56,908 bases of DNA from Pseudomonadota bacterium (GTDB lineage Bacteria; Myxococcota_A; UBA9042; GCA-2863065): NCBI GenBank assembly GCA_947498315.1, contig CANMLD010000006.1:1-56908 (forward strand), in the 5' to 3' direction. Below the pieces are notes generated by a model that was not told the origin of the DNA, did not search any database, and worked only from the letters and a program-made list of their open reading frames with translations. Below are positions 365-44,717 of the stretch, piece by piece. Made by a program: the position numbers and the translations under genes. Within the stretch, counting starts at the first letter, position 1. Every line of letters begins with the position of its first letter.

Positions 365-3300
365 ATGAATTTTAGTACTTGGAACCTGCGAGGGAGACTG
401 CTGCAGCCGGTCGTTCTCGCGCTTGGCACGGTCTGGATCGGGGCCTGTTCAGGGCCGTCAACGCCTGAGATGAATGAGGGGGCCACGCCGCTCCCTGGTA
501 CCGAGGCGGCCGCCCTCGAGCCAGGTGACAGCACGGGCGACCTGACGATCATCTCGCCCTGCAAAGAGGGGCAGGTCTCGGGCAAATGCATGTCCGAAGA
601 CCGACTGCTCGAAGCGGCGGTGAAGCAGTGCCATGCCTCGGGCTTAGTGCTGAAGAAGTGGGCCTTTGGCGCCCCGTGCGCTCGCGGCTTTGAAAGTATC
701 TCTTTTCTGTGTTGTCCAGGCGACCTGACGTGTTGTCGGGCCGATGGCGTCGCCACCATGACGCCGATCGGCCAGTGCAAGCGCCCCCTCCCTCCCACTG
801 CCTGCCAGCCTGACGAACCGATTTGCTGCAAGACCGAAAACGGTCCGCAGATCCTCCCCGGGAGCCAGTGCCCGCAAGACTCGGAGCTCGAGCCGAAGTT
901 CTGCGAGGGCCCGTGCGTCGCCGTCGCCTCCAACCAGGGCTGCCTATCGGCGGAAGACTGGAAGGGCGCCGTGATCCAGAAGTGCGAGGCGCAGGGCCTC
1001 GAGCTGACGAGCTACACGCTCGGGCCGGCCTGCGGCCCGAACAAGTTCACGTCGATCCAGGCGACCTGCTGCCCGGTCGCTGACGTCTGCTGCGAACTCT
1101 CGACCGGCCCGGCGCTCGTCCCGGCCAATCAATGTGACCGCCCGCTTCCCGCGGACCAGTGCAAGCCCTTCGACGTCTGCTGCAAGACGCCGAGCGGATA
1201 CCAGGTCACGCCGAACGCGTCGTGCCCGGCGGATTGGACCCTGCCGCTCGCGGAGTGCGAAGCGACCGTCTGTTGCAAGACCGACGCGGGCTTCGCTGAG
1301 CTCCCGGCTACGCAGTGTCCGTCGTCACAAGTCGCCCCCGGGGACTACTGCAAGCCCCAGGACGTCTGCTGCAAGACAACCACTGGTCTTCAGATCGTCT
1401 TGGAGGACCAGTGCCCGATCGCGGCCATCGTGGGCTTCGACATGTGCCTCGCGGAGGTCTGCTGCAAGACCGACGCTGGCCCCGTTACCGTTCCGGCCGT
1501 GAAGTGCCCGGCCTCGCAGCAGCTCCCGGCCGACCTCTGCAACGCCGACGTCTGCTGCAAGATCAACGGTGGCTACTTCACGCTCCCCGCCGGCCAGTGC
1601 CCGGACGGCCAGATTGCGGAAGAGGGCCTCTGCAAGCCGGTCGACGTCTGCTGCAAGTTCCCCGACGGCTACCACGTCGTCCCGCAAGACCAGTGCCTCT
1701 CGGCCGCGGTCGTACCTGCTGATTACTGCGCGGAGGCGGTCTGCTGCAAGACCGCGTCGGGCTACTTGACCGTGCCAGCCGGCCAGTGCCCGGTGGGCGC
1801 CATCGTACCTGGCCTGCTGTGCCAGGTGGTCGAGGTCTGTTGCAAGACCTCCGCCGGCTACCAGACCCTGCCGTCCACCCAGTGTCCGCTCGGTGCCGTG
1901 GTGTCGGCTGACCTCTGCAAGCCGGTCGAGGTCTGCTGCAAGACCGACCTCGGCTACCAGGTCCTTCCGTCGACCCAATGTTCGGCAACCGCAACGCTGC
2001 CGATCTCGTTCTGCGCTCAGGAGGTCTGCTGCGAGACCGCTACTGGCTATCAGGTCGTAGCAGCGTCTAAGTGCCTCGCCGCCCAGATCGTTGCGTACGA
2101 GCTCTGCAAGCCCCAGCCAGAGGTCTGCTGCAAGACCGCGGTCGGCTATCAGTTCGTGCCGGGCGACCAGTGCCCAACGAGCCAGCTCATCCCGGCTGAC
2201 CTTTGCAAGCAGGAGGTCTGTTGCAAGACGAGCGCAGGTTACCAGACGGTGCCAGCCTTCCAGTGCCCCGCGAGCCAGTGGGCCCCGAATGAGTACTGCA
2301 AGCCGGTCGTCGAGGTGTGTTGCAAGACCTCGTTCGGCTATCAGATCGTGCCGTCGACCCAGTGCCCGTCGTCGCAGGTGATCCCGGGCGACCTCTGCAA
2401 GCAGGAAGTCTGCTGCAAGACCGCCACAGGCTACCAGACCTTGCCGGCGTATCGGTGCCCGGCCAGCCAGTGGGTCGCGGGCTCGCTGTGCGTGCCGCAG
2501 GTCGAAGTCTGCTGCAAGACCGCGACGGGCTATCAGTTCACGTCGTCGGCGAAGTGCCCGACGTCGCAGGTGGTCCCGGTCGATCTCTGCAAGCAGGACG
2601 TCTGCTGCAAGACCGCCACGGGATACCAGACGCTGCCGGCCTTCCAGTGCCCCGCAACGCAGGTCGTGGCGCCGGAGCTGTGCAAGCCCGTAGACGTCTG
2701 CTGCAAGCTGAACGGCGGCTTCTTCGTCGTCCCGTCGACCCAGTGCCCGGCTACCCAGGTCGCCCCGGCGGACCTCTGCAAGCCGGTCGACACCTGCTGC
2801 AAGACGGACTTCGGCTACCAGATCCTCCCGTCGAACGTGTGCACGAGCCCGATCGACTGGAAGTTCTGCAAGCAGGAGGTGTGCTGCAAGACCGCCGCCG
2901 GCCCGCAGATCGTCCCGGCGTTCCAGTGCCCGGCCAGCCAGTGGCTCGCTGACGAGGTCTGCCAGCAGAAGGTTTGCTGCAAGACCTCGGCTGGCTTCGT
3001 CACGCTCCCGCAGTCGCAGTGCCCGGCCTCACAGATCGTCTCGTTCGAGCTGTGCAAGCCCCAGGACGTCTGCTGCAAGACCTACGTCGGATACCAGATC
3101 CTCCCGAGCACCCAGTGCCCGGCGAGCCAGCAGGTCGCTAGCGACATCTGCCGTCAGGAGGTCTGTTGCAAGACCGCCGCTGGCTACCAGATCGTCCCGG
3201 CGGCGTCGTGTCCGGCCAGCCAGACGGTCGGTATCGACATCTGCAAGCAAGAGGTCTGCTGCAAGACCGACGGCGGGTACTTCGTCCAGCCGGCCGCCCA

Positions 3301-6300
3301 GTGCCCGGCGGGTCAGATCGTGTCCTTTGAGATGTGCAAGCCGACGACCGTCTGCTGCAAGACCGACGCGGGCTACCAGCTCGCGCCGTCGAACCAGTGC
3401 CCGGCCATCGTGCCGAACGAGTACTGCTCAGCGAAGGTCTGCTGCAAGACCGCCACGGGCTACACGTTCGTGACGGCCGCGGAGTGCCCGGCGACGCAGC
3501 AGGTCTCGACCGACCTCTGCCTGAACCCGGTCGAGATCTGCTGCAAGACCCCAAGCGGCTTCCAGATCCTCCCCGCCTCGCTCTGCCCCGCGGGCGGCGC
3601 GTCGCCCTGGGAGATGTGCAAGCAGGAGGTCTGTTGCAAGACCGCGACCGGCTACCAAACGGTGGCCTCGTCTCAGTGCCCAGCCTCGCAGGTCGTCTCC
3701 TACGACCTCTGCAAAAAGGAGGTCTGCTGCCTCGTGACTGTCGGCGGGACGACCGGTTACGCCGTGGTCCCGGAGTCGCAGTGCCCTGCTGGCGCCATCG
3801 TCTCGGACGACATGTGCCGTCAGGAAGTCTGCTGCAAAATGCCGGGCGCCTACCACTTCACGACGGCGGCCGATTGCACCGCAGCGGGTGGGGCGGCTGC
3901 CCCGGATGGTGCCTGCTACTCCGAGTACTGCTGCAAGACCAGCGCGGGCTTCCAAGTCGTCCCGGCCTACGCCTGCCCCACCTGGGGCATCGTGACCCCC
4001 GAGCTGTGCGCGCCCGTCGAAGACGTGTGCTGCAAGACGCCGAGCGGCTATCAGGTGCTCCCGAGCACCCAGTGCCCGGCCTCGCAGGTCGCCCCGGACG
4101 AGCTCTGCAAGCCGCAGGGTGAGGTCTGCTGTCTCGTGAACGGCTCGCCGACCATCGTGAACGCGATTGACTGTGCCGGCTCGGCCATCCTCCCGGACGA
4201 CAAGTGCGACGAAGCCGTCTGCTGCAAGCTGGACTCGGGCTACCTCGTGGTCCCGGCGTCGGCCTGCCCGGCCGCGCAAGTCTCGTCGCTCGACCTCTGC
4301 TACGCGGAGGTCTGCTGCAAGACCGCCGCTGGCTACATCACGGTCCCGTCCTTCCAGTGCGACGCGACGATGGTGGTCTCGCCGAACCTTTGCGCCGCGC
4401 AGGAGAAGGTCTGCTGCAAGACTGGAACGGGCTATCAGGCCATCCCGGCGAACCAGTGCCCGACCTCGCAGGTCGTCTCGTGGGACCTGTGCAAGCCCGA
4501 CCCGGAAGTCTGCTGTGAGACTGCGGTGGGTCCGCAGTTCCTGCCGGCATCGCAGTGCCCGGCTGGCGGCATCCTCCCCGCAGACCGCTGCATCAAGGAA
4601 GTCTGCTGCAAGATGCCCGACGGCAACGTCGCGGTCGTCCCCTTGAACGAGTGCCCGAACCAAGCCTACGCCCCGTGGGAGATCTGTGAAGGCTTCGAAG
4701 TCTGCTGCAAGCTCCCGACCGGTGGTTACGGCATCGCGTCCATCGTGGAGTGCCCGGCTGCATCGGTCGTCTCGATGGACCTCTGCCAGGACCCCGAAGT
4801 CTGCTGCAAGGTAAACGGTGGCTACTTCCCGACGCTCGCCTCTCAGTGTCCGGCGGGCGCGATCGTCGGCTGGGATTTCTGCTTGCAGCAGGCCGAGGTC
4901 TGCTGCAAGACGGCCACCGGTGCTTATGTCACCACGCCGTCAACGCAGTGCCCGGTCTCACAGGTCGTCCCGATGGCGTTCTGCGAGACACCGTCGAAGG
5001 TCTGCTGTGTGGACCCGATGACTGGCCTCTACAGCTTCGTCGCGGCCTCGATGTGCCCGGCCACCCAAGTGATGCCCGACGAGAAGTGCAAGCCGGTGGT
5101 CACCACCGTCTGTTGCAAGACGGCCACCGGTGCCTACGTGACCGCGTTGTCCACGGATTGCCCGTCCGCGCAGGTCGTCCCGATGGCGTACTGCGGGACA
5201 GCGTCGGAGGTTTGCTGCCGTGAAGGTGACACCTTCACCGTGGTGCCAGATGGCCAGTGCCCGACGCAGGTCGTGCCGATGCCGTACTGCACCATCTGCG
5301 ACGCCGGCTTCATTGGCTGGTGCCCGGAGAAGGACCCGAAGCAGTACTTCCTCGATTGCAGCTCCTGGACGCCCTGTGGTCCCGGTGCCATCTACGCGGA
5401 CGCCAACTGCGACGGTCTCCTCGAGGACGTTTGCCAGGCGTGCCCCTCTGGCACCCATGCGACCGACCTGAATGGCGATGGCTGCTTCGAATCGTGTAGC
5501 TGCTGCGATCCGATCAAGTGCCCGACCGGGACCACCCCGGCCGACACCAACAACGATGGCTGCCCTGACATGTGCCGCAAGGATTGCGAAGGCATCGTCT
5601 GCGTACCGCCGCTCGTCCCCGTCGACTTCAACGGCGACGGCTGCGTCGACGCCTGCAAGCCGCCCTGCGAGCCGATCGAGTGCCCGCCGGGTCAGGTGGC
5701 CTTCGACTCGGACAACGACGGCTGCGATGACGCGTGTCGCGACGGTGGCTGCCAAGGCCTGAATGGCTGGTGCAAGGACCAGCCCCCGGGCCCGTACTAC
5801 GAGCAGTGCATGGGCTTCGGTGGCGAATGTGGCCCGAACGCCATCTTTGCCGACAAAGACTGCGATGGTCAGCTCGACGTCTGCCAGCTCTGCCCGCCTG
5901 GTTCGCACCCTGCTGACCTCAACGGCGATGGTTGCTTCGAAGCCTGCACCTGCTGCGAGCCGATCGTCTGCCCCGACGGTCAGAAGCCGGTGGACGTCGA
6001 TGGCGACGGCTGCGCAGACACCTGCGTCGACGGCTGTGATTCGTACATCTCGGGCTGGTGCAAGACTCAGGACCCGGCGAGTTACCTCACCCAGTGCATC
6101 GCTGCGGGCGGTGGCTGTGGACCGATCGGGATCCTCGCGGACTCGGACTGCGACGGCTCGCTCGACGTCTGCCGGATCTGCCCCCCGGGCACGCACTCGG
6201 TCGACGCCGACAACGACGGATGCGAAGAGGCTTGCGACTGCTGCCCCGTGCTCGCGTGCCCGGCTGGCACGGAGCCCGTCGACAGCGACAAGGACGGCTG

Positions 6301-7354
6301 CCCGGACCGCTGCGAAGCGCCGTGTAACCCCTTCTTCGGCTGGTGCAAGGACAAGCCGGCAGCGGCTTACCTGACCCAGTGCCTCGCGTACGGTGGTACT
6401 TGCGGCAATAACGCCATCTTTGCCGACGAGAACTGCGACGGCACGCTCGACACCTGCCACCTCTGCCCGGCCGGGACCACCCCGGCGGACACGAATGGCG
6501 ATGGTTGCTTCGAAGCCTGTGTCTGCTGCAAGCCCATCGCCTGCAAGCCGAACGAAAAGGCTACGGACACCAACGGCGACGGTTGCCCCGACACATGCGT
6601 CTCCTTCGCCTGCGACAAAGCGATCTTCGGCTACTGCAAGGACCAGAGCTACTCCGCCTTCGTGACGCAGTGCCTGGCACAGAACGGCGGATGCGGCAAT
6701 GGCGCCATCCTCGTTGACTCGAACTGCGATGGGGAGATCGACATCTGCAAGACCTGCCCAGTCGGGACCATCCCATCGGACCTCGACGGCGACGGCTGCC
6801 AAGAGTCGTGCGATTGCTGCCCCGCTGCGCCGGTCTGCCCGGCCGGCCAGAAGCCCGTCGACAGCGATAGCGATGGCTGCCTCGATGTGTGCCGCCCGGA
6901 CACAGTGTCCTGCTATCAAGAGAAGTGGGGCTTCTGCGGCGGTATCGCCTCGGCGTCCTACCTAGCGCAGTGCCTCGCTGCGGGCGGAACCTGCGGCCCG
7001 ACGGGCGTGCTCGGTGACGGCGACTGCGATGGGACGCTGGACATCTGCAAGATGTGCCCGCCGAACTCGCACTCGGCGGACCTCGATGGCGACGGCTGCT
7101 GGGAGTCTTGTGTCTGCTGCGAGCCTATCTCGTGCCCGGCCGGTATGAAGCCTGCGGACGCGAACAAAGATGGCTGCGCGGACTCGTGCGTCCCTGCCTG
7201 TCAGAACCTAGAGTGCCCAGCGGGTACAGCCCCGAAAGACGAGAACGGCGATGGATGCGCCGATGCCTGCAAGCAGCTCTTCCCCAGTGGTTCTCAGTGC
7301 GGAATCGATTCGCACTGCGCCAGCGGAAAGTGCCTGAACTTGAAGTGCCTGTAG
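365..7354 (+). CDS. Giant cysteine-rich repeat lipoprotein (about 46 CC-motif repeats)
   Basis: Predicted secreted lipoprotein of 2,329 residues; function not recognised. I chose the ATG at 365 because GGAGG lies 6 nt upstream and a lipoprotein signal follows, with lipobox IGAC and Cys28. An in-frame GTG at 326 would spoil the signal peptide. Residues about 66-117 and 187-237 are two copies of a small Cys domain. Then come about 46 repeats of 29-36 residues with the pattern V-C-C-K-T-x-x-G-Y-Q, P-x-x-Q-C-P and L-C-K, four cysteines each. The C-terminal third has six modules of about 110 residues, each opening with a G-[WYF]-C motif and carrying D-x-N-x-D-G-C-x-x-x-C stretches, which resemble calcium-binding thrombospondin type 3 loops. 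The last residues form a short Cys knot-like tail. A structural or adhesive surface role is inference. The many vicinal cysteines suggest heavy disulfide bonding or metal binding. Confidence 0.9.
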   Translation: MNFSTWNLRGRLLQPVVLALGTVWIGACSGPSTPEMNEGATPLPGTEAAALEPGDSTGDLTIISPCKEGQVSGKCMSEDRLLEAAVKQCHASGLVLKKWAFGAPCARGFESISFLCCPGDLTCCRADGVATMTPIGQCKRPLPPTACQPDEPICCKTENGPQILPGSQCPQDSELEPKFCEGPCVAVASNQGCLSAEDWKGAVIQKCEAQGLELTSYTLGPACGPNKFTSIQATCCPVADVCCELSTGPALVPANQCDRPLPADQCKPFDVCCKTPSGYQVTPNASCPADWTLPLAECEATVCCKTDAGFAELPATQCPSSQVAPGDYCKPQDVCCKTTTGLQIVLEDQCPIAAIVGFDMCLAEVCCKTDAGPVTVPAVKCPASQQLPADLCNADVCCKINGGYFTLPAGQCPDGQIAEEGLCKPVDVCCKFPDGYHVVPQDQCLSAAVVPADYCAEAVCCKTASGYLTVPAGQCPVGAIVPGLLCQVVEVCCKTSAGYQTLPSTQCPLGAVVSADLCKPVEVCCKTDLGYQVLPSTQCSATATLPISFCAQEVCCETATGYQVVAASKCLAAQIVAYELCKPQPEVCCKTAVGYQFVPGDQCPTSQLIPADLCKQEVCCKTSAGYQTVPAFQCPASQWAPNEYCKPVVEVCCKTSFGYQIVPSTQCPSSQVIPGDLCKQEVCCKTATGYQTLPAYRCPASQWVAGSLCVPQVEVCCKTATGYQFTSSAKCPTSQVVPVDLCKQDVCCKTATGYQTLPAFQCPATQVVAPELCKPVDVCCKLNGGFFVVPSTQCPATQVAPADLCKPVDTCCKTDFGYQILPSNVCTSPIDWKFCKQEVCCKTAAGPQIVPAFQCPASQWLADEVCQQKVCCKTSAGFVTLPQSQCPASQIVSFELCKPQDVCCKTYVGYQILPSTQCPASQQVASDICRQEVCCKTAAGYQIVPAASCPASQTVGIDICKQEVCCKTDGGYFVQPAAQCPAGQIVSFEMCKPTTVCCKTDAGYQLAPSNQCPAIVPNEYCSAKVCCKTATGYTFVTAAECPATQQVSTDLCLNPVEICCKTPSGFQILPASLCPAGGASPWEMCKQEVCCKTATGYQTVASSQCPASQVVSYDLCKKEVCCLVTVGGTTGYAVVPESQCPAGAIVSDDMCRQEVCCKMPGAYHFTTAADCTAAGGAAAPDGACYSEYCCKTSAGFQVVPAYACPTWGIVTPELCAPVEDVCCKTPSGYQVLPSTQCPASQVAPDELCKPQGEVCCLVNGSPTIVNAIDCAGSAILPDDKCDEAVCCKLDSGYLVVPASACPAAQVSSLDLCYAEVCCKTAAGYITVPSFQCDATMVVSPNLCAAQEKVCCKTGTGYQAIPANQCPTSQVVSWDLCKPDPEVCCETAVGPQFLPASQCPAGGILPADRCIKEVCCKMPDGNVAVVPLNECPNQAYAPWEICEGFEVCCKLPTGGYGIASIVECPAASVVSMDLCQDPEVCCKVNGGYFPTLASQCPAGAIVGWDFCLQQAEVCCKTATGAYVTTPSTQCPVSQVVPMAFCETPSKVCCVDPMTGLYSFVAASMCPATQVMPDEKCKPVVTTVCCKTATGAYVTALSTDCPSAQVVPMAYCGTASEVCCREGDTFTVVPDGQCPTQVVPMPYCTICDAGFIGWCPEKDPKQYFLDCSSWTPCGPGAIYADANCDGLLEDVCQACPSGTHATDLNGDGCFESCSCCDPIKCPTGTTPADTNNDGCPDMCRKDCEGIVCVPPLVPVDFNGDGCVDACKPPCEPIECPPGQVAFDSDNDGCDDACRDGGCQGLNGWCKDQPPGPYYEQCMGFGGECGPNAIFADKDCDGQLDVCQLCPPGSHPADLNGDGCFEACTCCEPIVCPDGQKPVDVDGDGCADTCVDGCDSYISGWCKTQDPASYLTQCIAAGGGCGPIGILADSDCDGSLDVCRICPPGTHSVDADNDGCEEACDCCPVLACPAGTEPVDSDKDGCPDRCEAPCNPFFGWCKDKPAAAYLTQCLAYGGTCGNNAIFADENCDGTLDTCHLCPAGTTPADTNGDGCFEACVCCKPIACKPNEKATDTNGDGCPDTCVSFACDKAIFGYCKDQSYSAFVTQCLAQNGGCGNGAILVDSNCDGEIDICKTCPVGTIPSDLDGDGCQESCDCCPAAPVCPAGQKPVDSDSDGCLDVCRPDTVSCYQEKWGFCGGIASASYLAQCLAAGGTCGPTGVLGDGDCDGTLDICKMCPPNSHSADLDGDGCWESCVCCEPISCPAGMKPADANKDGCADSCVPACQNLECPAGTAPKDENGDGCADACKQLFPSGSQCGIDSHCASGKCLNLKCL
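1175..5290 (+). repeat. Array of about 93-bp coding repeats in the giant lipoprotein
   Basis: About 43 well-kept units follow one another, each starting near GTCTGCTGCAAGAC (Val-Cys-Cys-Lys-Thr). Unit length varies from 87 to 108 bp, always in frame. The CC-K-T start and the Q-C-P and L-C-K positions are kept, while the residues between vary. Three degenerate units lie upstream, between about 755 and 1175. Units drift gradually and no two neighbours are identical, so the array is old rather than freshly amplified. Confidence 0.92.
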
Positions 7355-8737: not shown

Positions 8738-8776
8738 GACCGTCCGCGGTCCGATCAGCACCGAGCTCACCGCCCT

Positions 8777-8820
8777 CGGCGGGCGCTACGCGAAGCCCGC
8801 CTCCGAGCGGTTCCGCTCGA
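8777..8820. terminator. GC-rich hairpins between convergent genes
   Basis: CTCGGCGGGC at 8777-8786 pairs imperfectly with GCCCGCCTCCGAG about 10 nt further on. It is followed at 8805-8820 by the perfect palindromic hairpin CGAGCGG-TT-CCGCTCG. No T-run is present. Their place after the MBL gene, before a convergent gene, suggests termination. Confidence 0.4.
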
Positions 8821-8892
8821 CGCTTGACCGGCCCTGCGTTCGCCGGCAGGAGGGGCGAGGATTGGTGCTTGGAGTTCCCCGAATGACCGAGA

Positions 8893-8980
8893 CCACGCAA
8901 TGCGCTTGCGGGTGGGGGCGACCGAGGCGCGACCGAGGTGCACGGCGATCGCTCAATCTCCATGTTGTCCGACCTACTCA
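8893..8980 (-). repeat. Palindromic intergenic element, truncated copy D
   Basis: This stretch matches the right half of the long element at 31013-31251. Shared blocks are GCGCTTGCGGGTGGGGG, GATCGCTCAATCTCCAT and the terminal TTGTCCGACC-x-ACTCA. The left half is missing. The outer end of the element, read on the minus strand, starts TGAGTAGGTCGGACA. Its first three bases, TGA, are exactly the stop codon of the adjoining SMUG1-type gene. Confidence 0.75.
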
Positions 8981-10080: not shown

Positions 10081-10262
10081 TCAGTCGGTCAGACAAAATG
10101 GAGAACGAGTGTACGCCGCGCAATTTTCGGCGCAACGAGTTGGCGCCGACAGGCGCATACTTGAGCGACGAAGACGGGCTTGTAGCCCTTCAAGAAGCGA
10201 GAGCAACTCGATGCCCGAAAATTGACGGCGGACTCCAATCGGAGTTTTGCCTGACCCTCTCA
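10081..10262 (+). repeat. Palindromic intergenic element, diverged copy C
   Basis: A 182-bp relative of the element at 20686-20865 in the same orientation, with many substitutions. The ends are TCAGTCGGTCAGACAAAA and TTTTGCCTGACCCTCTCA. The inner inverted pair GCAATTTTCGGCGCAACGAG and CAACTCGATGCCCGAAAATT is well kept. It lies 24 bp after the rpsU stop codon and may end rpsU transcription. Confidence 0.8.
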
Positions 10263-10798: not shown

Positions 10799-13729
10799 TC
10801 ACTCCGGCAGCGGCCAGCGAACTTCGAAGTCGAGTACGTCGGGGAGTGTCTCTGGCGTGAGGCCGAGGAGGCTCGCGATGAGCGACCTCGCGCCTTCCGG
10901 CTCGAAGCCGCCAACCTCGACGACGGCGAGGACCAGCTCGTCCGTCTTCAACGCGCCGCTGATCCGTGGCGCCTCTCCCGGCGGGACGCGGAAGACGGCG
11001 CCGACGAGGCCGATCTCGGCCAAGAGCTCAGTCCCATTCATGATCGGGACGGTGAGGTCCGTCGGCACCGTCTCGATTCCGGCCCCTCCAGCGAGATCGA
11101 TGGCCCTCCAACCCGTGGGTGCGACCGTGCCAGCGTCGTCCCGCGCGAAGCCGAGCGCCACCTGCGCTTGCCCGCTCGTCGGGGCTCCCAGCTCGCCATA
11201 GACGAGCGCGGGCAGGAGCGGATCGATGATGGAGACCCCTGCGGGCGACACGGCCGTCGCAGTCTTTCCCGTGAAGGTCTCGGTGGCGAGGGTACCGAGC
11301 GCGAAGGTCTCTACCGCGCCGCCAAGCGTCGCCGTCGCAACGTATAGTCCCGGGACCGCAAAGCTGTGCGAACGTGACGTCGCGCCCATTGGGACCGTGT
11401 CGTCTGCACCATCGCCCCAGTCGAGGGCCCCGCCCGGCGACGCCGCCAGGAACGTCAGCTCGTGAGCCTGACCGGCTGGGACCAGCGCGTCCTTGACCTG
11501 GACGCGGACGTCGCTCGCGGCGCCGGCGAGGGCATCGGCGACCCGCCGATCCGGCGCCGTCCAGTAGAAGCCCCAGTGCGTTCGGCCGAGGTAGCGGTAG
11601 GGGTAGATGGTCCAGTTCTCGTCGCCGTCGAGCGTCTCGCCGCCGCCGATGGACCGCTCGAGGGGCTCATAGCGGTAATCGGCTTCGCGCCGATGGATGA
11701 CCGCGATGGCCGCCTGAGTGGTGGCTTGCGCCGCAGCGAGCCCGGCCGCGCTCGTATCCTCCGCTCCGGACAGAATTGAACGGCGCCGCGCCGCAAGAGC
11801 GCCAAAGAGCTCGGCGGCGTGGCGCGCGCGTAGTCCGGTCACCTCGATGCCGTCGCGGATCTCTCGGAAGATGGAACCGCCAGTCTCGGGGATCCAGTCT
11901 TCCACGGTGGCGAGGTTCTGCACGAGGGCAGCGTAGGTCCCGGCCATCTCGACGAGCCGCGGACGCGTCGACTGCTCCCACGTCGTGAGCGCAGCCTCGT
12001 CCCACGAGAACACCGCTTCGGGCGTGGGCGGAAGGGGATGGAAGACGACGCCGAGCGCGGCGGCCGCTTCCGTCTCAGCGTCGGTCCCGACCAGATAGCG
12101 GAGCATCTCCGCGTCGAAGAAGACGGTCTCCTGGTGCGCGATGACGGCGTCGAGCACGTCGAGCACGTCATCCTGGGCCTCGCCGAACGGCGTGGTGATG
12201 TCCGCGAGGCAATCACGCCAGTCCACGTCGCGGTCCGCCGCCATTCGGAAAGCGCAATACTCGTTCTGCCAGTAGCCCCACTCGTGGCCGCTACCGAAGA
12301 TGCGGTGCCCGTCGAGGCCCGAGTCGGCCGCAGCCGCTTCGCCATACTGCCAGGTGGTGTCGACGAGATCGGCGAGAGCCGTGAGGTCGCGGCTACGCGC
12401 TTCGATGGTGATGGGGAGGTAGAGCGGGACCGGGAGGTCGAAGGTGAGCCACCACGCGGACTCCGGGAAATACCAGAAGCGGCGCTCGCCCGCGTGCTCG
12501 CGCATGAAGTCTTCGAGATAGTTGAAGTTTTCGTTGCCGTATACCGGCGCCGGGCGCTCGAGATCGTAGAACATGAGAGTGTGGACATTGACGCCCCAGC
12601 GCTCGTGAGCGGGCACCATGAGCGCATAGGGCGAGACGCCATACTTCTCCGACGGCGGCTTGGACGTGGCGTGGAAGGTCGCGATCGGCATGACCTCCGG
12701 GTGCTTCTCTTCGAGGTACTCCGCGATGAAGCGGAGGTGGGCCACGACCTCGTCTTCGGGTTCCGTCGTGAATTCGGTCGGTTGGAAGCCGACGCTGAAG
12801 AGGCGAATCGGGAACTCGGCCACATCGGGCAGCGCGAACTGCTCGTCGATAGCGGCGGCGAGCTGCTCTTCGGCGGTGAGCGGGCTGTCGGGGTCGATGA
12901 GCCCACTCGCGCCTTGTTGCTGGCCGTAGAGGCTGAGGCCGGCGCTGCGGAGGAAGCCGCGTTCGAGTCCGTAACGCGCGTAATCGCCGCTGAGGACCCC
13001 CTCCTGGCCGTAGCTCGCGAGGTTCTTCACCTGCCAGTCGATGTACCGCTTCCCTTCGAGCTCGTACTCCGGCTTTCCGAGCCGGAAGACGTCGCCGAGC
13101 TCGAGCGGGTGGGTCAGATGCAGCGACGCGCTTCGCCATCGGATGAACGGAGTGCGCTCGACGTCGAAGGGCGCTTCGGGCCACATCGGGAGCGGTGGAT
13201 ACCACTCCTCTTCTGGATGAAAGAAGCGCGCACCGATGCGGTGCAGGAAGTCGTAGGCCGCGTACTGCCGTCCGAGGAGGCCGCCGCCTTCGAGGGTTAC
13301 GAGGCGGCCACCTTCTTCGCAGCGCGCTTCTCGGATGCGCCAGCTCTGGTCGGTGGAGAGGCCCGGATCGGCGGCCTCGCTCGGCGCCACGAAGCGCACG
13401 AGCCCCAGCTTCTTGGTGCATTGTCTAGCGGTGAGCCCAACTCGGGTGACCTTGCGGCCCATCTGCGTGAGCGCGAAAACGACGTCGTCGCTGGTCCAGC
13501 CCAATGCCTTCTCCGCGGCGGCGGAGACCTCGACCTGCCAGATCACGGGGATCGGCGGGGGCTCTTGGGCGGAGGTGTCGGGTAGGTCGGACGTCGCTGT
13601 GTCGGCGGCCTCGGTGTCAGCGACGTCCGCTATGGCCGAGCCGCCGCCGGTCGCGTCGCTGCAGCCGAAAGGCGCCGCAGCGAATGCGCAAGCAGCAAGG
13701 AGGAAGGTCTGGGTTCGTCGGACGAGCAT
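10799..13729 (-). CDS. DUF4838-like (alpha-glucuronidase-like fold) lipoprotein
   Basis: A 976-residue secreted lipoprotein. The ATG at 13729 was chosen because GAGAGG lies about 6 nt upstream and a lipoprotein signal follows (lipobox P-F-G-C, Cys23). An Asp/Thr-rich linker comes next. The region starting near residue 70 resembles the N-terminal alpha/beta domain that precedes the barrel in DUF4838 and GH67-like proteins, including G-L-L-G-R-Q-Y-A-A-Y-D-F-L and G-A-R-F-F-H-P. The middle part has the Trp- and Tyr-rich stretches of the barrel (for example W-Y-F-P-E-S-A-W-W). A PKD-like segment (D-W-G-D-G-A-D-D) lies in the C-terminal third. A role in glycan breakdown or binding at the cell surface is inference. 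It is divergent from the nuclease gene, sharing a 163-bp upstream region. Confidence 0.75.
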   Translation of the reverse strand: MLVRRTQTFLLAACAFAAAPFGCSDATGGGSAIADVADTEAADTATSDLPDTSAQEPPPIPVIWQVEVSAAAEKALGWTSDDVVFALTQMGRKVTRVGLTARQCTKKLGLVRFVAPSEAADPGLSTDQSWRIREARCEEGGRLVTLEGGGLLGRQYAAYDFLHRIGARFFHPEEEWYPPLPMWPEAPFDVERTPFIRWRSASLHLTHPLELGDVFRLGKPEYELEGKRYIDWQVKNLASYGQEGVLSGDYARYGLERGFLRSAGLSLYGQQQGASGLIDPDSPLTAEEQLAAAIDEQFALPDVAEFPIRLFSVGFQPTEFTTEPEDEVVAHLRFIAEYLEEKHPEVMPIATFHATSKPPSEKYGVSPYALMVPAHERWGVNVHTLMFYDLERPAPVYGNENFNYLEDFMREHAGERRFWYFPESAWWLTFDLPVPLYLPITIEARSRDLTALADLVDTTWQYGEAAAADSGLDGHRIFGSGHEWGYWQNEYCAFRMAADRDVDWRDCLADITTPFGEAQDDVLDVLDAVIAHQETVFFDAEMLRYLVGTDAETEAAAALGVVFHPLPPTPEAVFSWDEAALTTWEQSTRPRLVEMAGTYAALVQNLATVEDWIPETGGSIFREIRDGIEVTGLRARHAAELFGALAARRRSILSGAEDTSAAGLAAAQATTQAAIAVIHRREADYRYEPLERSIGGGETLDGDENWTIYPYRYLGRTHWGFYWTAPDRRVADALAGAASDVRVQVKDALVPAGQAHELTFLAASPGGALDWGDGADDTVPMGATSRSHSFAVPGLYVATATLGGAVETFALGTLATETFTGKTATAVSPAGVSIIDPLLPALVYGELGAPTSGQAQVALGFARDDAGTVAPTGWRAIDLAGGAGIETVPTDLTVPIMNGTELLAEIGLVGAVFRVPPGEAPRISGALKTDELVLAVVEVGGFEPEGARSLIASLLGLTPETLPDVLDFEVRWPLPE

Positions 13730-13829
13730 GGGCAACCTCTCGTACCGAGTGTAGCCCACTGCATTCCGGAAACCGGCATCGAGACGAATGTCGGAGGAAA
13801 ATGCAGTCCCCGGTTCGACGCCCGTTCGG

Positions 13830-13852
13830 GTCGCGACATACTCTGACGCGAC
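13830..13852. promoter_or_regulatory. Possible operator upstream of the nuclease/WYL unit
   Basis: GTCGCG and CGCGAC form an inverted repeat separated by 11 bp, 41 bp before the nuclease start codon. WYL-family regulators often control their own operon, so this is a candidate binding site. The evidence is position and symmetry only; GC-rich inverted repeats of this size can arise by chance. Confidence 0.3.
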
Positions 13853-13892
13853 TCTGGAGACCCTTATCGCAGCTCTCACAACGGAGGTCTCC

Positions 13893-15440
13893 ATGAGCTA
13901 TCAGAACATCGACTTCAATGTCCTCGAGAACGTTGTCCGCGCGCTCCCGTCCGTCTTCCAGACCAAGGACGCCTCGGAACACCCCGTGATGCTTCGGGCC
14001 CATGGTGCAGAGTCCATGACACGCAACTACCACGCCGATGTAGGACGGGCCCTGAGCGCTCACCACGTCGCGCTCGGGGTGCAGGACCAGCACCGCAAGG
14101 GGGTGCGCGGTACTACATGGCGAAAGGCCCCTCGAAAGGACCGCCCACCTTTGGGCACACCTCACAGTGACGGGCTGGGTGCCCCCGCGACGGAGGAGTC
14201 ACCCCCGGAGCTCCCGCCTCGTGGCGCTGTCGCGGACGTCGACGCGGCGCTCCTCGCGCGGGTCGTTACCTCCCAGCGTCGCACCTTCGCGACCCGGGAC
14301 GTGTCGGAGGACCCGCGGATGAAAGGCGGGCACCCTGCCCTCAACGTGCACCCGAACTACCACGCGTTCATCGGTCGCGCGCTCAGTATCCATCGGGAAT
14401 CACTGGGGATCGACGAGCTGCGTAAGGGGTCGAGCCGAGGCTCGATCTGGGAGAAGACGGGCGCGACGACGACCAAAGTGGCGCCGACCGCAGCACCGCC
14501 TCGAGTACCGTCGGGACTTCAGGGCGACGCCGCAGAGCTCGGGCCGCAATACGCCGGCGACAGCGTGTTCACGGCGCGCATGCGTCGCCATCAGAGCTGG
14601 TACCGTGCCCATATTCTGAAGGTGCCCTACGGCCCCGGGCCCACGGCCAACGAGGCGCGGCTCCTCGGCAACATGTTGACGCCCGCGGACGGGCAGCTCG
14701 GGCGCAACTTCGTGACCCCGGCCATCGCGGAGGTAGCGCTAGAGCGGGTACGTCGGGGCGGCGGCGCGGTCGAGCCTTACCGCCTGCTCCACAACATGCT
14801 CTCGAGCCAGCCGATGTGTTTCAACCTTTTCGCGCCGCTCGCGCTCGACCTCGCGCTCGCCCGGGTCCTGGTGGCGACGATGGTCCCGGAGAAGGTCGCA
14901 GAGGTGACTCGGGTGGATCTCGAATGGTCGCCCATCCCCTCGGACGAGTACCTCGGGGACCGGACGGCCTTCGACGCGGCCATCGAATACGTGACGTCGG
15001 ATGGGGCCCGGTGCCTGCTGGGGATCGAGACCAAGCTCACGGAGCCATTCTCGCCGGGCGAATATGATCGCGAGTCGTACCGGCGCTGGACGAACGGCCC
15101 CCGTTCGCCGTGGCGCCTGGAAGCCCGCGACACGCTCTACCGAAGCCGGACGAACCAGCTCTGGCGGGACCACCTCCTCGCCGTGGCGCTCCGAGACCAC
15201 CCGAGGTCCGACTTCACCACGACGCGGCTGATGGTCGTCCACCACCCCCTCGACCGGGACTGCCAGCACGTCGTCGAGCACTACCGGGGGCTCCTGAACG
15301 ACGGCGACGACTCGTTCCGGTCGTGCCCCCTCGACGCGCTCATCGGACGTTGGAGGGGCCTCGTAGGCACGGACGACCAGCGCGCCTGGCTCGACGCGCT
15401 CACGCTTCGTTACCTCGCGCTGGAACGGAGCGGCGCATGA
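13893..15440 (+). CDS. PD-(D/E)XK nuclease-like protein with duplicated N-terminal domain
   Basis: A 515-residue protein. The ATG at 13893 follows GGAGG at 5 nt. Residues 9-64 and 118-173 are two copies of a helical unit with F-x-T-x-D-x-S-E-x-P-x-M, then N-Y-H-A and G-R-A-L-S-x-H-x-x-x-L-G. A low-complexity linker follows. The rest, about 222-500, resembles the PGN_0703-type PD-(D/E)XK family: R-R-H-Q-S-W-Y-R, M-L-S-S-Q-P-M-C-F-N-L-F, then Asp361 and the E-T-K triad at 379-381, giving a likely active site. The gene overlaps the downstream WYL regulator by 4 bp. This pairing suggests a regulated defence or DNA-processing unit, which is inference. The family name is recalled from motif similarity, not from a search. 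Confidence 0.75.
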   Translation: MSYQNIDFNVLENVVRALPSVFQTKDASEHPVMLRAHGAESMTRNYHADVGRALSAHHVALGVQDQHRKGVRGTTWRKAPRKDRPPLGTPHSDGLGAPATEESPPELPPRGAVADVDAALLARVVTSQRRTFATRDVSEDPRMKGGHPALNVHPNYHAFIGRALSIHRESLGIDELRKGSSRGSIWEKTGATTTKVAPTAAPPRVPSGLQGDAAELGPQYAGDSVFTARMRRHQSWYRAHILKVPYGPGPTANEARLLGNMLTPADGQLGRNFVTPAIAEVALERVRRGGGAVEPYRLLHNMLSSQPMCFNLFAPLALDLALARVLVATMVPEKVAEVTRVDLEWSPIPSDEYLGDRTAFDAAIEYVTSDGARCLLGIETKLTEPFSPGEYDRESYRRWTNGPRSPWRLEARDTLYRSRTNQLWRDHLLAVALRDHPRSDFTTTRLMVVHHPLDRDCQHVVEHYRGLLNDGDDSFRSCPLDALIGRWRGLVGTDDQRAWLDALTLRYLALERSGA

Positions 15441-16462
15441 GCGGACGGCCGGCCAAGACCTATTCGCAAGCCGCGCGGATGGTCGCGCAGGTGCTTCACC
15501 TCTCGAAGTCGGGGCGTCTACAGCCAGATGAAGAAGCGCGGCGCTGGGAGGTCTCCAGGCGGACGATCGAGCGCGACATCCAGGCGTTACAAGTCGCCCT
15601 CGACGTGTCGGACTTGCGCCTGGAGTCCGGAGTCGGCGAGGACGGCCGGGTCGAATATCGGCTGGTTGGCGAGAAGCCGCTCGACCGCCATAAACGCTGG
15701 CAATTATTGGCGGTCGTGCTCGGGGTGGAGCTCAGTCACTTCCTCGGCGGCAAACGTTTCAGGCGTGACATCGAGGCGCTCGAGGAGCAGCTCCTCCGCG
15801 GCCTCGGGACCATCGACCGCATGACGATGCGGGACACCATCGACGGTCGCATCTACGTCGTGAAGACGGGGCGAAAAGACTACCGAGGCCGCGAGGACGT
15901 CATCGCCGCGCTTTCGAACGTCCTCGACGCGCTGCTCGAACGCCGCGCGCTTCGGCTCATGTATCTCTCGCCGGCGTCACGTCGCGAGCGACGGCTGGTG
16001 GTACACCCGCTGACGCTCGTCATGAACCGAGGGGCGCTCTACGTCATCGTGGAGCTCATCGAGCCCGCAGAGGGGCTGCCGAGCCGTATCCTGCTGGCGG
16101 TCGACCGGATGAGCGACACGACGGTCGACGTCGAGCTGCCGGCCCGAGCGTATCCCTCAGACTTCCGGGCTGACGACTTCCTCGCGTCGGCCTTCGAGAT
16201 CATCCCGGGCCCCGTCGAACACGTCGTCCTCGAGGTAAGCCCGGTGCAGTTGCCCTATGTCCGCGAGCACTTCTGGCATCAGAGCGCGCACTACGTGGAG
16301 CACGATCGCGTGACGTTCTTGCACCTCGACGTCGCGCTGGGAGTGGACCTCGAGAACTGGATCTTAGGCATGGCGGACCGAGTCGTCGTTCGCGAGCCGG
16401 CCCGCCTGAGGCAGCGCATTCGGGAACGCCTGAGCGTAGCGATGGCGGCATACGAAGAGTGA
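15437..16462 (+). CDS. WYL-domain transcriptional regulator
   Basis: A 341-residue regulator starting at an ATG whose last two bases are shared with the TGA of the nuclease gene (ATGA overlap), so translation is likely coupled. The N-terminus holds a winged helix-turn-helix (W-E-V-S-R-R-T-I-E-R-D-I-Q-A-L). A WYL domain follows at about 150-240, with L-R-L-M-Y-L-S-P-A-S and H-P-L-T-L-V-M-N-R-G-A-L-Y, and then the usual WYL C-terminal extension. WYL domains sense nucleic acids or nucleotides and often control defence operons. An inverted repeat upstream of the nuclease gene may be its operator. Confidence 0.88.
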   Translation: MSGRPAKTYSQAARMVAQVLHLSKSGRLQPDEEARRWEVSRRTIERDIQALQVALDVSDLRLESGVGEDGRVEYRLVGEKPLDRHKRWQLLAVVLGVELSHFLGGKRFRRDIEALEEQLLRGLGTIDRMTMRDTIDGRIYVVKTGRKDYRGREDVIAALSNVLDALLERRALRLMYLSPASRRERRLVVHPLTLVMNRGALYVIVELIEPAEGLPSRILLAVDRMSDTTVDVELPARAYPSDFRADDFLASAFEIIPGPVEHVVLEVSPVQLPYVREHFWHQSAHYVEHDRVTFLHLDVALGVDLENWILGMADRVVVREPARLRQRIRERLSVAMAAYEE

Positions 16463-32242: not shown

Positions 32243-35200
32243 CTATTCGATGATGACGCGTTCGCTGGCCGAACGACCGAAGGTCTCGGGCGCGTACATC
32301 TCCTCGGCCTTGGCCGGGGGCACCACGAAGTTGCCAGGCGTAGTCGCCCGAGCGAGGTAGCTGTATGTGTACACACCACCCCAGAGGAGCGACGTGAAAG
32401 CCTCGACGCGTTCGTCACGAAGGTTCTCGTGCTCATACCACGGGCCCCACCATCGCCCGTAGCCGCCACGCGGGCCACCGTGGTGGTCGCCCCAATCATC
32501 GCCGCCCCCACCGCCGGAGGTCGCCTCTGGACGAGGCGCTTGAGACCCGAGTAGCTCCGGGTTCAGCGGTTCGAAGCCGGCTGGGATGGGATCGACCAAG
32601 GCGACGTGATAACGGCGCGCCTCGGCGACCATCGTGAGCTTCACGCGGACTCGGGTGCCCGCCTTGACGCGCCAGACGCCATCGTCGCCCTTCTTAACGT
32701 CGTCTGGCGCATCCACGGCCTCATAGGTGCGCTCGACGTAGAAGCCCCTGTCCATCGACTCGAGCTTCAGGTCTTTCGGGGCGTAGCGCATGCCGACGCG
32801 GTAGTAGAGGCGACCGGCGCCGTCCTTCTGGATGACGAGCGACTTGTCGCCGTCACCGAGGAGCGCCATCGGGATCCCGACGAAGTGGCGCTCGGTCGTC
32901 CGGCCCTTGAAGGTGTGATCACCCGCGTACTGATCGCCCAGCCACACCCGAGCCACGAAGTTCGGCGTGACCTTCTCGAAGGTGTTGAAGTAGCGGTCGA
33001 GCGCCAGGAGCACGAAGACGTTCTCCTGCGTATTGCCCCAGCGGCCCTTGGTCCGGTGCGCCAGGAGACCGTCGACGAGCTTCGGGATGAGGTCGCTCTT
33101 CTCGTCGGCGAGAGTCACCGCGTCGAGGAGGATGCCGTCCACACGACGATCCGAGTGGAGGATGAGGTGCGACCCATCGGTGTACGACGTCGTGAAATGG
33201 GCGGAGCCCGCCGTCTCGGTGACGTTGTTGCCAAGGTGACGCAGGAGCTCCTTCACGAGGTCGGCCGAGCCGGTATCGGTCACGAGCGCCGGCAGCAGGA
33301 ATCCGATGGCCTCGAAGGGGGTCGCCTTGGGTCCGCCGAACTCCGCAACGAGCGCGCGCGCTCGTGCCGCGTCGACGTCGCCGAGCTGAACCCGCGCGTA
33401 GATGGCGTAGGCTTCGATGACCCGTCGAATCTCTTCCGGGTAATCACTCGGGAAGTGGCTGCGAACATCCTTCAGGTACCGGAGCGTCCTCTGGACCATG
33501 CGATCTGGGATGGTGAAGCCCTTCTGCTTCGCGCGACCCATCGCGTGACCGACATGTGCGGTGAGGTACGGCCAATCCCGCTCCGAACGCTTCCAGAAGC
33601 TGAAGCCGCCGTTGTCATGCTGAAGCAGTTGCAAGCGAGTGAGATCCCGCTCGACCGCCGCCATCATCTCCGCCGGAGACGGCAGCCCTTCGGTCTTGAA
33701 CGCGGTCAGCACATCTTTGAGAGCCGCGATGCCGAGGATCCGGGAGCTGATCTGCTCGGAGCACTCGAAGGGGTAGCTGACGAGGTAGAGGACCGCGTCG
33801 GTCAGCGCTTGCAGGTTGGTCGACGCCGTCGAGACCTCGAGCCCGCCGAACTGCGTGAAGACGTCACCCGGCATCTTGACGGGCTGAGCGATGGCGCCCT
33901 TGTCGATGGTTCCGTAGGTGGCAAAGGCTTCCGTGGTGGCTGGGGTCCAGATCGGCAACTCGATATTGGCGGCGTCGGACCACTTCCCGGTCGATGCACC
34001 GATTTGGAAGCGGGCCTTACCCACGCGCGACACGGCCGCCGGGAAGCGGACCTCGACCCGGTCGTTGGCCGGGACCGTCACCTTGCGGCCAGCGCCATCG
34101 CTGAGCTCCACGCCGAGCGCGCTGACCGCGACGTCGACCTCCATAGGAGCGGAGGTCTGGTTCTGAAGGACGATGGGGAGCTCGAACGTGTCACCAAAGT
34201 TCAGGAAGCGCGGCGCCGAGGGGCGCACCATAAGCGGGAGGCGCGCCGTCAAGGTGGCGTCGCCGAGGCCGAAGTGTTTGCCGCCTTCGACGGCAACGGC
34301 GGTGATTCGGTAGCGCGTGAGGTTGTCCGGCAGCGTGACCTGAACGGTCGCGACGCCCGATTCATCGGTCGGCGCCACGGCCGCGAAGAGCGCGAGCGGG
34401 TCGAAGTTCTTGCGAACAGCGATTGGACCACCCGCGTCGCCCCCACCGCCGCCGGTCGGAGCTTCATCCGAGGGGGCGTCGCCCGCCGACTCCGCCTTGG
34501 CCATGGCCGGCGCCGCTGGAGAAGGCATTGGCGTCAACCTCATCATCGAGCGTTCCCTGCCGTCCGCAGACCCCTTCGCGGCCGCCTGCAGCAACGCCGC
34601 CGGGTCGTCGAGGATGAGAAAGCCGCGTAGCTTGTGGATACGGCTGGTGCCATAGCGGCTGCCATAGAAGGTCGCGACGGGATCACCGATACGATAGCCG
34701 GTGAGCGCCAGGACGGATTCGTCCACGACGACGATGGCGACCTCGGCACCCGGGACAGGCTTGCCTTCGTGGTCGGTCACGGTGACCGCGACCTGGGTCT
34801 GACCGCCGGGAGGGAGGTCCGCTTCCGCCGGGACGGGCTTCACGGTCAGCGTGCGCGTAACGGGTGGCACTGCGAGCGAGACGGCGCCCGACGCATGGGC
34901 GGGCCGCTTCGGCAGCTTTGGATCCGCCTTGCCGTCGTCACCGACCCGTTCAGCTTCACCCGTCAGGTCCACGCGGACGCGAACGTCCGGCATGAAGCCC
35001 TCTTGGATCTTCACCTTGACGACCGTGGAGTTACCGTCTCCATCGGCGCCAATGGTGATCGGCTGTGTCTCGACGACGCCAGCGACACTGATGGTCACGA
35101 GGCCGTCGGCGCGGGGCCACGGGCTCGTGACGAAGATCTCGGCCGTGTCCCCGACCGCGTACTCTTTCTTGTTCGGGATGAGGGTGACGTTCTCCTCTTT

Positions 35201-38200
35201 GATCTCCCGCTCGATGCGCTGCTTGCCACCAGGGACATAGAACTCGCGTTGCGACTCGTTGGCTCTGCCAGAACCGTCCTTGATGCGCGCCTTGATCTGG
35301 TGCGATCCACCTGCCTTCGGGGTGAATGAGCAAGAGACGTCGTTGGCCGCCGAAGTGACCGTGCACGTCTCGCGGTCCTTCTCCTCCTGTGTCCAGTCGC
35401 CCTTGTCGTATCCCCACTCGAGTCGCACGCACTCGACCTCGATGGTGACGCCAGGCTGAAGGTTGCCGTCGATGTCCGTGACGATGAGGGACACGTCGAT
35501 CGGCTCGCCAGACTTGAGGAAGTCGCGCTCGCCCTTGATGCCGACGTAGCGGTCGGATGGGTGGACGAGCAGCGTGGAGCTGGCCGAGAAGGTCTGGCGG
35601 TTGACGTCCTGGACGGTCGATTGTGCGGTCAGTGACCACGGCCGCGGCGGGCTGACGGAATCAAAGCGGAGCTCGAGCCGGTGCGTTCCGGCGCTGTCCG
35701 TCGTGCCCTCGTAGTTCAGATGGATGCTCGACGCCGAGCGGCTCTCCGAGCTCCACCAGGGCGTCCAGCTCCCGAACGCGTAGTCCCAACGATTCGGCGG
35801 CGTGTAGTTCGTCTGAGATCCGCTCACGGTCCAATCCACTTTCGCGCCCGGCAGGGTGCCACCGGCGAAGTACTTCGCCGTCGTGGTCACGACTGCTTTG
35901 CCGCCCACGTAGAAGGGGCCGTCGCTGACGACCGAACTGACCTCGAACTCGGGGCGTCGGAACTCTTGGACTTGAAAGGTCCAGGACGTGTTGCCACCCG
36001 TCGCAGAGGCGCCCTCAGCCACGAGATCGAGCCTGGCCGGGCCTAGGTTCATGGTGTCGGGTAGCGTGATCGTCCCGTCAAAGCCGCCGAGTGAGGTGAC
36101 GGGAGAGGTCCCCTTCGCAACTTCGTTCCCTCGAGAATCGACGAGAGTCCAGCGAACGCCAGTGATGCCGGCGTCGAGCCCCTGCACTGTCGGCATCTTC
36201 CCACCGCCGATGAGCCGCATCCAGCCCTTGAAGCGGACCTGCTCCTTCGGTCTATACAGACCGCGATCGTCGAAGACGTACCAGCGAACATAGGGCCCTT
36301 GCGTGGACTTCACCCAGCTCGAGCCACCGTTCCAGTAGACGTTCTCGGGGAGGAAGACGACGTCCTTGTCCTTGGACGCCACGAGCCAGCGCCCTTGCCC
36401 AGCGCTGCCCGGGAGCGCGAGCTCCGCGATGCCCGCCGCGCCGGACTTCGCGACCATGCCCTCTGGCTGCAAAGAGACGTCGGCACCGTCAACGGGGAGC
36501 CCAGTCTGAAGCGACGTGACCAGCGCGTAGACGGTCTCGCCGTCCATGATGGCATCGATGGCGAGCTGAGTGCGCTGCACCCATGTGACACGGACGTCTT
36601 CGTAGTACTCGTTGTCCGGCGGCTGGATCACGGGACGTATCCACAGCATGACGCTGCCGAAGCCGTCCTCGAGGGCGGGACGGAGGTCGATCTTGGTCTC
36701 GACCATCTCGTCTTCCACTGATGCGATCTTGACCCGCTTCTCCCAAACTGCCTTTCCGGGCGGGGACTTGCGGTCTTTCTTGTAGGTGACGTTGGCGGAG
36801 TAGTCGAGGTAGGTCGGGAAGTCCTTCGGTGAGACCCGGTAGAGCTTCACGTCGATCTCTTGATGGTTGATCGAGCTCACGGAGATAGAGCCGTCACCCA
36901 TGGGATCGGCCAGAATGAACTTCTGGGTCGGGGTCACGAGGATGGGTTCGGCCTTGGTGACCTTGACCGACGTCTCGAGATCCTTTGCGAGGACCTGCCC
37001 GAAGATGTCTTTCAGGCCCGCCTTGACGTTGATCCGATAGGTCGTTCGGCCCTTGGAAGCGCCTGAGATAGTGACATTGTTGCCCATGGCCTCGATACGG
37101 GCGTTCGGCAACTCGGGCGTAATCGTTACCGAGCCGGGCTCAAAGGCCTGCACATCGATGCCGTTGGTAAACTCGAGCGACCACGGGTGCAGCGGCGGGC
37201 AGTTGTTGTTCCAGCCGCAATGGAGCTCCTTGAACTTGAAGGGACCATAGGTCTGAAACGAGGACGTCTGGTCTTTGTCGGTCTTACGAGGGCCTTCGCC
37301 GGACGGCGCTCCGGCGGCGAGGACGATGGAGAAGGTCTCGGCGGCGGGCAGATCCTCGACTGGGATGACCGCGATCGCGCGGCCCTTTTCATCGCCCGAA
37401 CCTGTCACCGTGGCCTTGGCCGACGGGTCCGCAGCGAGCTCCGCTTCAGTCGCGAGTCTGACGGCACGTTCGGCCCCGAACGCGCCGTACTTGACCTTCA
37501 CGAAGGGCAGGATCGCCTGCTCGTCAATCCGCTGGTCGAAACGTAGCGCGATGACAGGGCGGAGCTGGGTCGGGAGGTAATCTCCCGGCCAACGGGCGAT
37601 GACGCGCGGAGCAGGAGTACGGAAGGTCCACGACACCTCTTTGTCGAGCTTGCCCCCGGTAGCCGAGGCCGTGCTCGCAGGCACCGTGACCTTGAACTCC
37701 GTGGACATCGGGAGCCGAACCTTGGCGTCGAAGGTCAACGTCTTGGTGCCGACCCACTTCCACTCGCCCTCGAGAGAGGGCGTCAGCTGCACCGGGATGG
37801 GGAGCTTGCTCAGCTCCTCGTGCGACGTGACGGCCACCATCGGCTGGGAGAAGGTGATGGAGAGCTGAGGCGCCACCGGGACGTCGCCTTCGGGGCCAAA
37901 ACGTCGCACTTCGAGCGGCCCCTGCTCCGCTTCGGGGGTCGCGACGGCCCCCGGAGCCACGGGTGGCGGGAACGGTGTCTTGACGGTCTCACCGGCGCGC
38001 GGCGCGGGCAGCGAGCGCTCGCGGAAGGCGAAGGGCACGTCATCGCCGGCCTGCCCTTCGAGCTTCGGCAGTCGCGCGATGAGCGCCTTGACCGACGCGT
38101 CGTCGAGCTTGGTCGTTGGAGGAACAGAGGCACGGTCCACCGTGGGACCACCGCCCTCCCCTTCGCCGAGGACGATCTGCAGCCCAGTCGGGTTGGGCGG

Positions 38201-39299: not shown

Positions 39300-39449
39300 G
39301 CAGTCTCTCCTGGGTAGGCGAAGGTCGGCGAGGCGCGCGTATTGCCGCCTCTTCGGCCGATCCGCAAGTGCGTCCGAGGACGAATCTGCAGTTTTCTTCT
39401 CAGCTCCGCGCGAGTTGACCTCCCGCTCTGGCCGTGCGGGAATCCACGC

Positions 39450-41738: not shown

Positions 41739-41793
41739 GCCCCGTTCTCGACATTTCCCTATCCTCGGCCCCTAGCCGGCACGGTATTCCAAG

Positions 41794-44340: not shown

Positions 44341-44717
44341 GCGCCAAAGGTCCCGAAAAGTCCCCGTTCGGTCTCACTGACGAGCCCCGCGACATCGGGC
44401 CCTTTGGCGAGCCGACCCATCCGGACGCGAAGGTCTCTCAGTCGCTCCCTGGCGTGACCATCTACAAGTCCGAGCTCGACTTCGAGAAGGTCGCGCGCTA
44501 CTTCGAAGAGCGTCTCGCGACGGAGAAGAACGTCTTCTGCGCCCGGGAAGAGAGCGACGGACAGCCGTGTTTCGTCGCCGGTGCCGGCGTTCGATTCACC
44601 GGAGGGGCGTGGGCCACCATCGTGGTGACCCCAGAACGCCCTAAAGGTCGCCGACCTCCCAAAGGAACTCAGATCCTCGTGACCGAACGAGCTCCTAGCC
44701 CAGCGAAGCCGGCGTGA
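44337..44717 (+). CDS. Small hypothetical protein, likely CTG start
   Basis: A 126-residue protein that I do not recognise. No ATG, GTG or TTG lies in frame near the expected start. A CTG at 44337 shares its bases with the upstream stop codon (CTGA), and a strong binding site GGAAGGGGG lies 6 nt before it. The protein therefore most likely starts at CTG. The middle part (F-E-K-V-A-R-Y-F-E-E-R-L, G-A-G-V-R-F-T-G-G, A-T-I-V-V-T-P) looks like a small alpha/beta fold. There is no signal peptide. The stop overlaps the GH114 gene start by 4 bp. Confidence 0.72.
   Translation: MSAKGPEKSPFGLTDEPRDIGPFGEPTHPDAKVSQSLPGVTIYKSELDFEKVARYFEERLATEKNVFCAREESDGQPCFVAGAGVRFTGGAWATIVVTPERPKGRRPPKGTQILVTERAPSPAKPA

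Follow-up and report, generated by a model that had tools for sequence, protein, structure and literature searches.

The window, meaning the whole 56,908-nucleotide stretch of DNA analyzed here, is the entire contig C6 of a 5.0 Mb genome in 328 contigs. Near one end it carries an open reading frame of 2,329 codons; 364 bases separate its start from the contig end, so that its upstream side is the contig end itself. The frame opens with an ATG preceded by GGAGG, and its GC3 (0.86) matches expectation for a real gene at 66% GC. The product contains 297 Cys residues and 54 CC pairs. An earlier note on this DNA had described a giant Cys-rich repeat lipoprotein at this position, and the start, stop, GC3, Cys count, and unit count confirm it. 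The downstream gene encodes a metallo-beta-lactamase-fold hydrolase; the immediate downstream genes appear unrelated, and no neighbor points to adhesion.

Several other gene groups are present in the window (Table 1). A PDDEXK_13/REase-ARP nuclease gene is followed by a WYL regulator gene, and the 1,031-aa ORF beside the nuclease gene has no Pfam or PADLOC match; this region is a possible defense locus. MMPL transporter, DUF2194, and GH114 genes stand in a row that is possibly an exopolysaccharide (Pel-like) cluster. A bacterial alpha-2-macroglobulin of 2,088 aa is also encoded.

Table 1. Features of the lipoprotein gene, in their order along the protein, and other genes of the window.
Feature	Position	Strand	Basis or remark
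Predicted lipoprotein of 2,329 aa, whole gene	365..7354	+	ORF, ribosome site, GC3
Signal peptide with lipobox WIGA/C, lipidated Cys at residue 28	365..448	+	by motif alone
N-terminal Cys domain, copy 1 (residues about 66-118)	560..718	+	homologues in L023, L024, L032
Two CC units after Cys domain 1	719..904	+	unit profile
N-terminal Cys domain, copy 2 (residues about 184-236)	914..1072	+	32% identical to copy 1
One CC unit after Cys domain 2	1073..1168	+	unit profile
Array of 43 contiguous CC units (residues 269-1643)	1169..5293	+	consensus xEVCCKTxxGYQxxPxxQCPAxQxVPxxxCxx
Six Cys/Asp-rich modules (residue starts 1645, 1796, 1891, 1987, 2083, 2183)	5297..7198	+	alignment, loop motif, AlphaFold
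Extra loop and C-terminal tail CGIDSHCASGKCLNLKCL	7199..7351	+	sequence
1,031-aa ORF beside nuclease gene	10799..13894	-	
PDDEXK_13/REase-ARP nuclease gene, then WYL regulator gene	13788..16462	+	
2,088-aa alpha-2-macroglobulin	32243..38509	-	added Big_5 domain
MMPL transporter, DUF2194, GH114 genes	39342..45556	+	

The N-terminus carries a lipobox by motif (...VWIGA/CSG; MNFSTWNLRGRLLQPVVLALGTVWIGAC-SG) of the bacterial lipoprotein type, and the product is predicted from it to be an exported lipoprotein. The protein ends in a short tail (CGIDSHCASGKC; terminus ...CLNLKCL) and has no NCBIfam match to the MYXO-CTERM tag (TIGR03901: Cys, transmembrane helix, Arg-rich end), while such tags are present in the host genome, in line with placement of the organism in Myxococcota. 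The N-terminal Cys domains are duplicated, as had been noticed earlier; their Cys residues fall in alignment, and the two copies have diverged. The six C-terminal Cys/Asp-rich modules, likewise reported before, align with one another over about 96 columns.

The bulk of the protein is a tandem array of four-Cys units with a vicinal Cys pair, here called CC units. A profile of the unit recovers 46 of them, the 43 contiguous units and three that adjoin the N-terminal Cys domains, in agreement with the earlier estimate of about 46 units of 29-36 residues. The contiguous units are 29-36 aa long, about 32 being typical, and all 43 contain exactly four Cys (172 in total, 12.5% of the array). His occurs twice in 1,375 residues, and the unit is devoid of CxC and CxxC ligand patterns. 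Spacing is CC-x13-C in 37/43 array units and C-x10-C in 39/43, and the combined pattern CC-x13-C-x10-C is seen 33 times; 1,000 shuffles averaged 0.34 occurrences and never gave more than 3. Identity among the units is 19-75% (mean 46%), and no pair exceeds 85% identity at the DNA level; the array is therefore neither a collapsed nor a duplicated assembly artefact.

Known families do not account for the repeat. The lipoprotein matched 0 families in Pfam-A at E <= 1, none in NCBIfam even at E <= 10, and no PDB sequence; profiles of the CC unit and of the C-terminal module also found nothing in PDB, and the CC regions of relatives had no Pfam match. A clear hit to a described repeat family would have contradicted the earlier view that the repeat lies outside known families, and Pfam-A, NCBIfam, and PDB sequences were all blank. 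TIGR04201 (Myxo_Cys_RPT) is found only elsewhere in the genome. Membership of the CC units in that family was rejected on the lack of an NCBIfam match (> 25 bits required), the unit length of 29-36 aa, and the presence of four invariant Cys, two of them vicinal. Judged by its sequence, the CC repeat is a clear protein repeat family that is missing from Pfam and NCBIfam.

A structure prediction of three units, proposed by the earlier note, was run with AlphaFold on an alignment of the protein's own units only (15 rows; non-overlapping three-unit windows). The model is confident (pLDDT 89.6, pTM 0.52) and gives the same predicted unit three times over: a beta-hairpin, a short helix before the third Cys, and a short helix before the fourth. 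Strand 1 of the predicted hairpin holds both vicinal Cys. The pTM at this pLDDT is in keeping with small domains strung out in an extended chain. A Foldseek search with this model gave no significant match in PDB or among viral models.

The six C-terminal modules contain 15 loops of the type D-x-[DN]-x-D-G-C-x-[DE]-x-C; module 1 bears two extra loops, and one more follows the last module. From these motifs, the modules probably bind Ca. The D-x-[DN]-x-D-G loops resemble the Ca loops of thrombospondin type 3 and dockerin domains, here with Cys at fixed places, but the likeness is one of motif: the lipoprotein has no PF02412 or PF00404 match and does not belong to those Pfam families. AlphaFold predicts the module with a pLDDT of 86.6 and a pTM of 0.64, and Foldseek against PDB gave nothing significant (best E 0.65). 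TNF-receptor-like matches of the module were discarded (E about 1).

The CC family, defined here as units of the x-V-C-C-x13-C-x10-C type that match the profile at E <= 1e-3, includes the lipoprotein and extends well beyond it. A profile of the lipoprotein's own units matches 6/52 genomes of the host's class, and a diversified profile matches 23/379 sampled Myxococcota genomes (the host's own and 22 further). Relatives were absent from viral contigs and plasmids. The full lipoprotein as a query against genome contigs returned nothing, and a pattern scan of the contigs based on the unit alignment, which reaches close relatives only, gave three confirmed loci. A total of 407 units were gathered from 29 ORFs; the first and second Cys of the pair are retained in 405 and 406 of them, respectively, although the profile search partly selects for that. 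Non-Cys identity between units is 22-43% in most arrays, and the only persisting positions are the Cys, a turn Gly, and some Pro. In these alignments, Cys and predicted hairpin are retained while the unit surface drifts.

The number of units in a protein ranges between 1 and about 65, and the partner domains are unrelated; architectures were read off translations, and most partner-domain names were assigned by eye. A 2,239-aa lipoprotein (L084) consists almost entirely of CC units, about 65 in number. In L086 (L088, L090, L093, and L100 are alike), a toroid-like N-terminus precedes TSP3-like loops, about 14 CC units, and a MYXO-CTERM-like tail (by eye), and TIGR03901 is above cut-off in L086. 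Also by eye, L083, L094, and L030 each join CC arrays to a C-terminal domain of its own kind, L028 and L029 combine Ig-like, CC, and beta-propeller-like parts, L095, L096, and L097 have ZU5-like and CC parts (one also with an FGE-sulfatase-like domain), and L032 places a single CC unit between an N-domain and a LamG/HYR-like region; one unit can therefore stand alone. CC units are joined to a CxxCH-bearing domain in L027, and three of them to an M10-like peptidase in L098, where the Pfam matches are weak. A lipobox pattern occurs in 12 other CC-unit ORFs and MYXO-CTERM-like ends in several others; most relatives carry one or the other. In the nearest architecture, from genome G004, the end of C61 carries the same N-terminal Cys-domain pair and the start of C284 the same C-terminal modules. 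The two contigs break inside CC repeats, and this homologue is apparently split (the pieces were left unjoined). The earlier note regarded the repeat as unlike any it knew: it is indeed uncatalogued, but it is not a one-off, being a mobile module in about a dozen architectures across Myxococcota. The range of unit numbers, the unrelated partners, and the loose non-Cys sequence suggest that the array serves as a spacer and not for binding, and that CC units are interchangeable and set length.

A second repeat bears on the pairing of the Cys. One CC array of G004 closes with a unit reading GACCLPDG..., and GACC arrays were located with a GACC consensus that served only as a lead; the arrays found are real sequences. 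The window's own genome encodes one as its second giant Cys-array ORF (L110; G000 C141, minus strand, frame 8406-13685), which covers 1,760 aa, runs off the contig end, and contains 43 GACC units, with exactly six Cys in 42/43. It has no Pfam or NCBIfam match. GACC and CC units have in common the CC start, the hairpin, Cys-xxx-GG, and the Cys order; GACC units differ by two more Cys, located in the hairpin and the tail respectively, besides the four core Cys. With hhalign, the diversified CC family aligned to GACC at superfamily level (probability 92%, E 5.5e-7 over 30 columns); the match was weak with the window's own units alone (17.6%, E 0.0014). Across 444 classifiable units, 63 have both extra Cys, 372 have neither, three have the hairpin Cys only, and six the tail Cys only. 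The classes are distributed by family, which makes the 444 units non-independent, and the Fisher p-value should not be read at face value. That the two extra Cys come together or not at all nevertheless suggests that they bond to each other and that the four core Cys make two disulfides inside the unit, with which the lone CC unit of L032 agrees. The only hairpin-only units among the 444 are three successive CC units in the reverse-strand protein of L027 (residues 349-446), which have a fifth, hairpin Cys and no tail partner.

The host genome contains a third giant Cys-array ORF (L112; G000 C102, minus strand), an open frame of 2,429 aa with 321 Cys. Its Dickkopf_N/DUF7107/EB repeats number in the dozens, and it has one TIGR04201 match just above cut-off. 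Like the lipoprotein, it is a giant Cys-repeat ORF of the same genome, but its repeats are catalogued (PF04706, PF23416, PF01683) and have no vicinal-CC unit, and the lipoprotein matches none of these families. The genome also has 26 DSBA-domain matches (in G000 C167, C35, C158, C113, C114, and others), many of them tandem DsbA domains within a single ORF of about 600-780 aa. This expansion was rejected as specific support for the arrays, since it is class-wide and also occurs in genomes without CC arrays. Plentiful DSBA permits disulfides and does not prove them.

We consider it rather probable that the product of this gene is an exported, lipid-anchored, disulfide-stapled stalk of variable length. 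The lipidated N-terminal Cys would hold the protein in the outer membrane, with the two N-terminal Cys domains as its base. The 43 tandem CC units, each a hairpin and two short helices with two intra-unit disulfides, would form a long thin rod, in which the vicinal Cys of strand 1 may pair with the Cys located after each short helix. If each unit contributes 2-2.5 nm (an assumed figure), the length of the array would come to roughly 85-110 nm. The six modules, rich in disulfides and Ca loops, would form the outer end and probably serve in adhesion or ligand binding. Location as a periplasmic lipoprotein instead of at the surface is possible.

The earlier note had left a choice between a disulfide-locked surface fiber and a metal-binding array. 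A thiol-based array, a sort of giant metallothionein whose vicinal Cys bind or store soft metals at the cell surface, would explain the vicinal pairs and the very high Cys content, but it is very unlikely. The units have confident predicted secondary structure, whereas metallothioneins have little, and they have almost no His and none of the CxC or CxxC ligand patterns. The protein is exported to a location where thiols oxidize, the partner domains are not metal-related, and the joint presence of the two extra Cys in GACC units fits disulfides. The disulfide-locked rod is thus the part of that proposal that best explains the data, and the metal array is disfavored.

Disulfides could instead link different molecules, with the units cross-linking chains into a matrix or sheath like keratin or spore coat. 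Adjacent Cys of one beta-strand should face opposite sides in the predicted secondary structure, and the host genome encodes further Cys-rich giants, both of which agree with such a network. We nevertheless hold it to be improbable given the even number of Cys per unit, the lone unit of L032, the fusion of L098 units to an M10-peptidase-like domain, which needs no sheath, and the retention of the four core Cys when two more join as a set. There is a similarly small chance that the array itself acts as a series of small disulfide binders, for ligands or as inhibitors at the surface or in the periplasm, and is no passive stalk. Binding of proteases or glycans is common among small disulfide modules, and the C-terminal modules of L021 adjoin Kazal-like segments (by eye); however, non-Cys identity drifts to 22-31% in most arrays, no exposed loop is conserved apart from Gly and Pro positions, and the partner domains vary widely.

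The stalk reading has a precedent in the same phylum. TraA is a myxobacterial kin-recognition receptor. As spacers, CC units are also comparable to EGF arrays. The Cys-rich repeats of TraA in Myxococcus xanthus were proposed to form a rigid stalk (PMC3325183), which has been modeled as a beta-hairpin shaft stiffened by disulfides (PMC12045341). Both proteins are thus myxobacterial and exported, with tandem Cys-rich hairpin repeats and a proposed disulfide-stiffened stalk that presents a terminal domain (PMC3325183, PMC12045341). They differ in the repeat, since TIGR04201 has 22 positions and three invariant Cys (PMC3325183) and CC units have about 32 residues and four Cys with a vicinal pair, and in anchoring, which is by MYXO-CTERM in TraA and by a predicted N-terminal lipid in the lipoprotein. 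By analogy, the CC stalk probably works like that of TraA, without membership in TIGR04201.

More broadly, there is about an even chance that CC and GACC repeats make up one uncatalogued vicinal-Cys superfamily that provides a general, length-tunable extracellular stalk of bacteria, at least in Myxococcota, much as EGF/Notch arrays do in animals; the CC unit would have one disulfide fewer, and the lipoprotein would be among the longest examples. The CC family connects numerous giant exported proteins of Myxococcota that lack annotation, and with its array the TraA stalk would no longer be the only disulfide type, a second kind standing next to it. The family also offers a simple way to test the layout of Cys pairs in vicinal-Cys repeats. 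A prediction that follows from the stalk reading is that Gram-negative cells can build very long, chemically stapled rods by the addition of 30-residue units.
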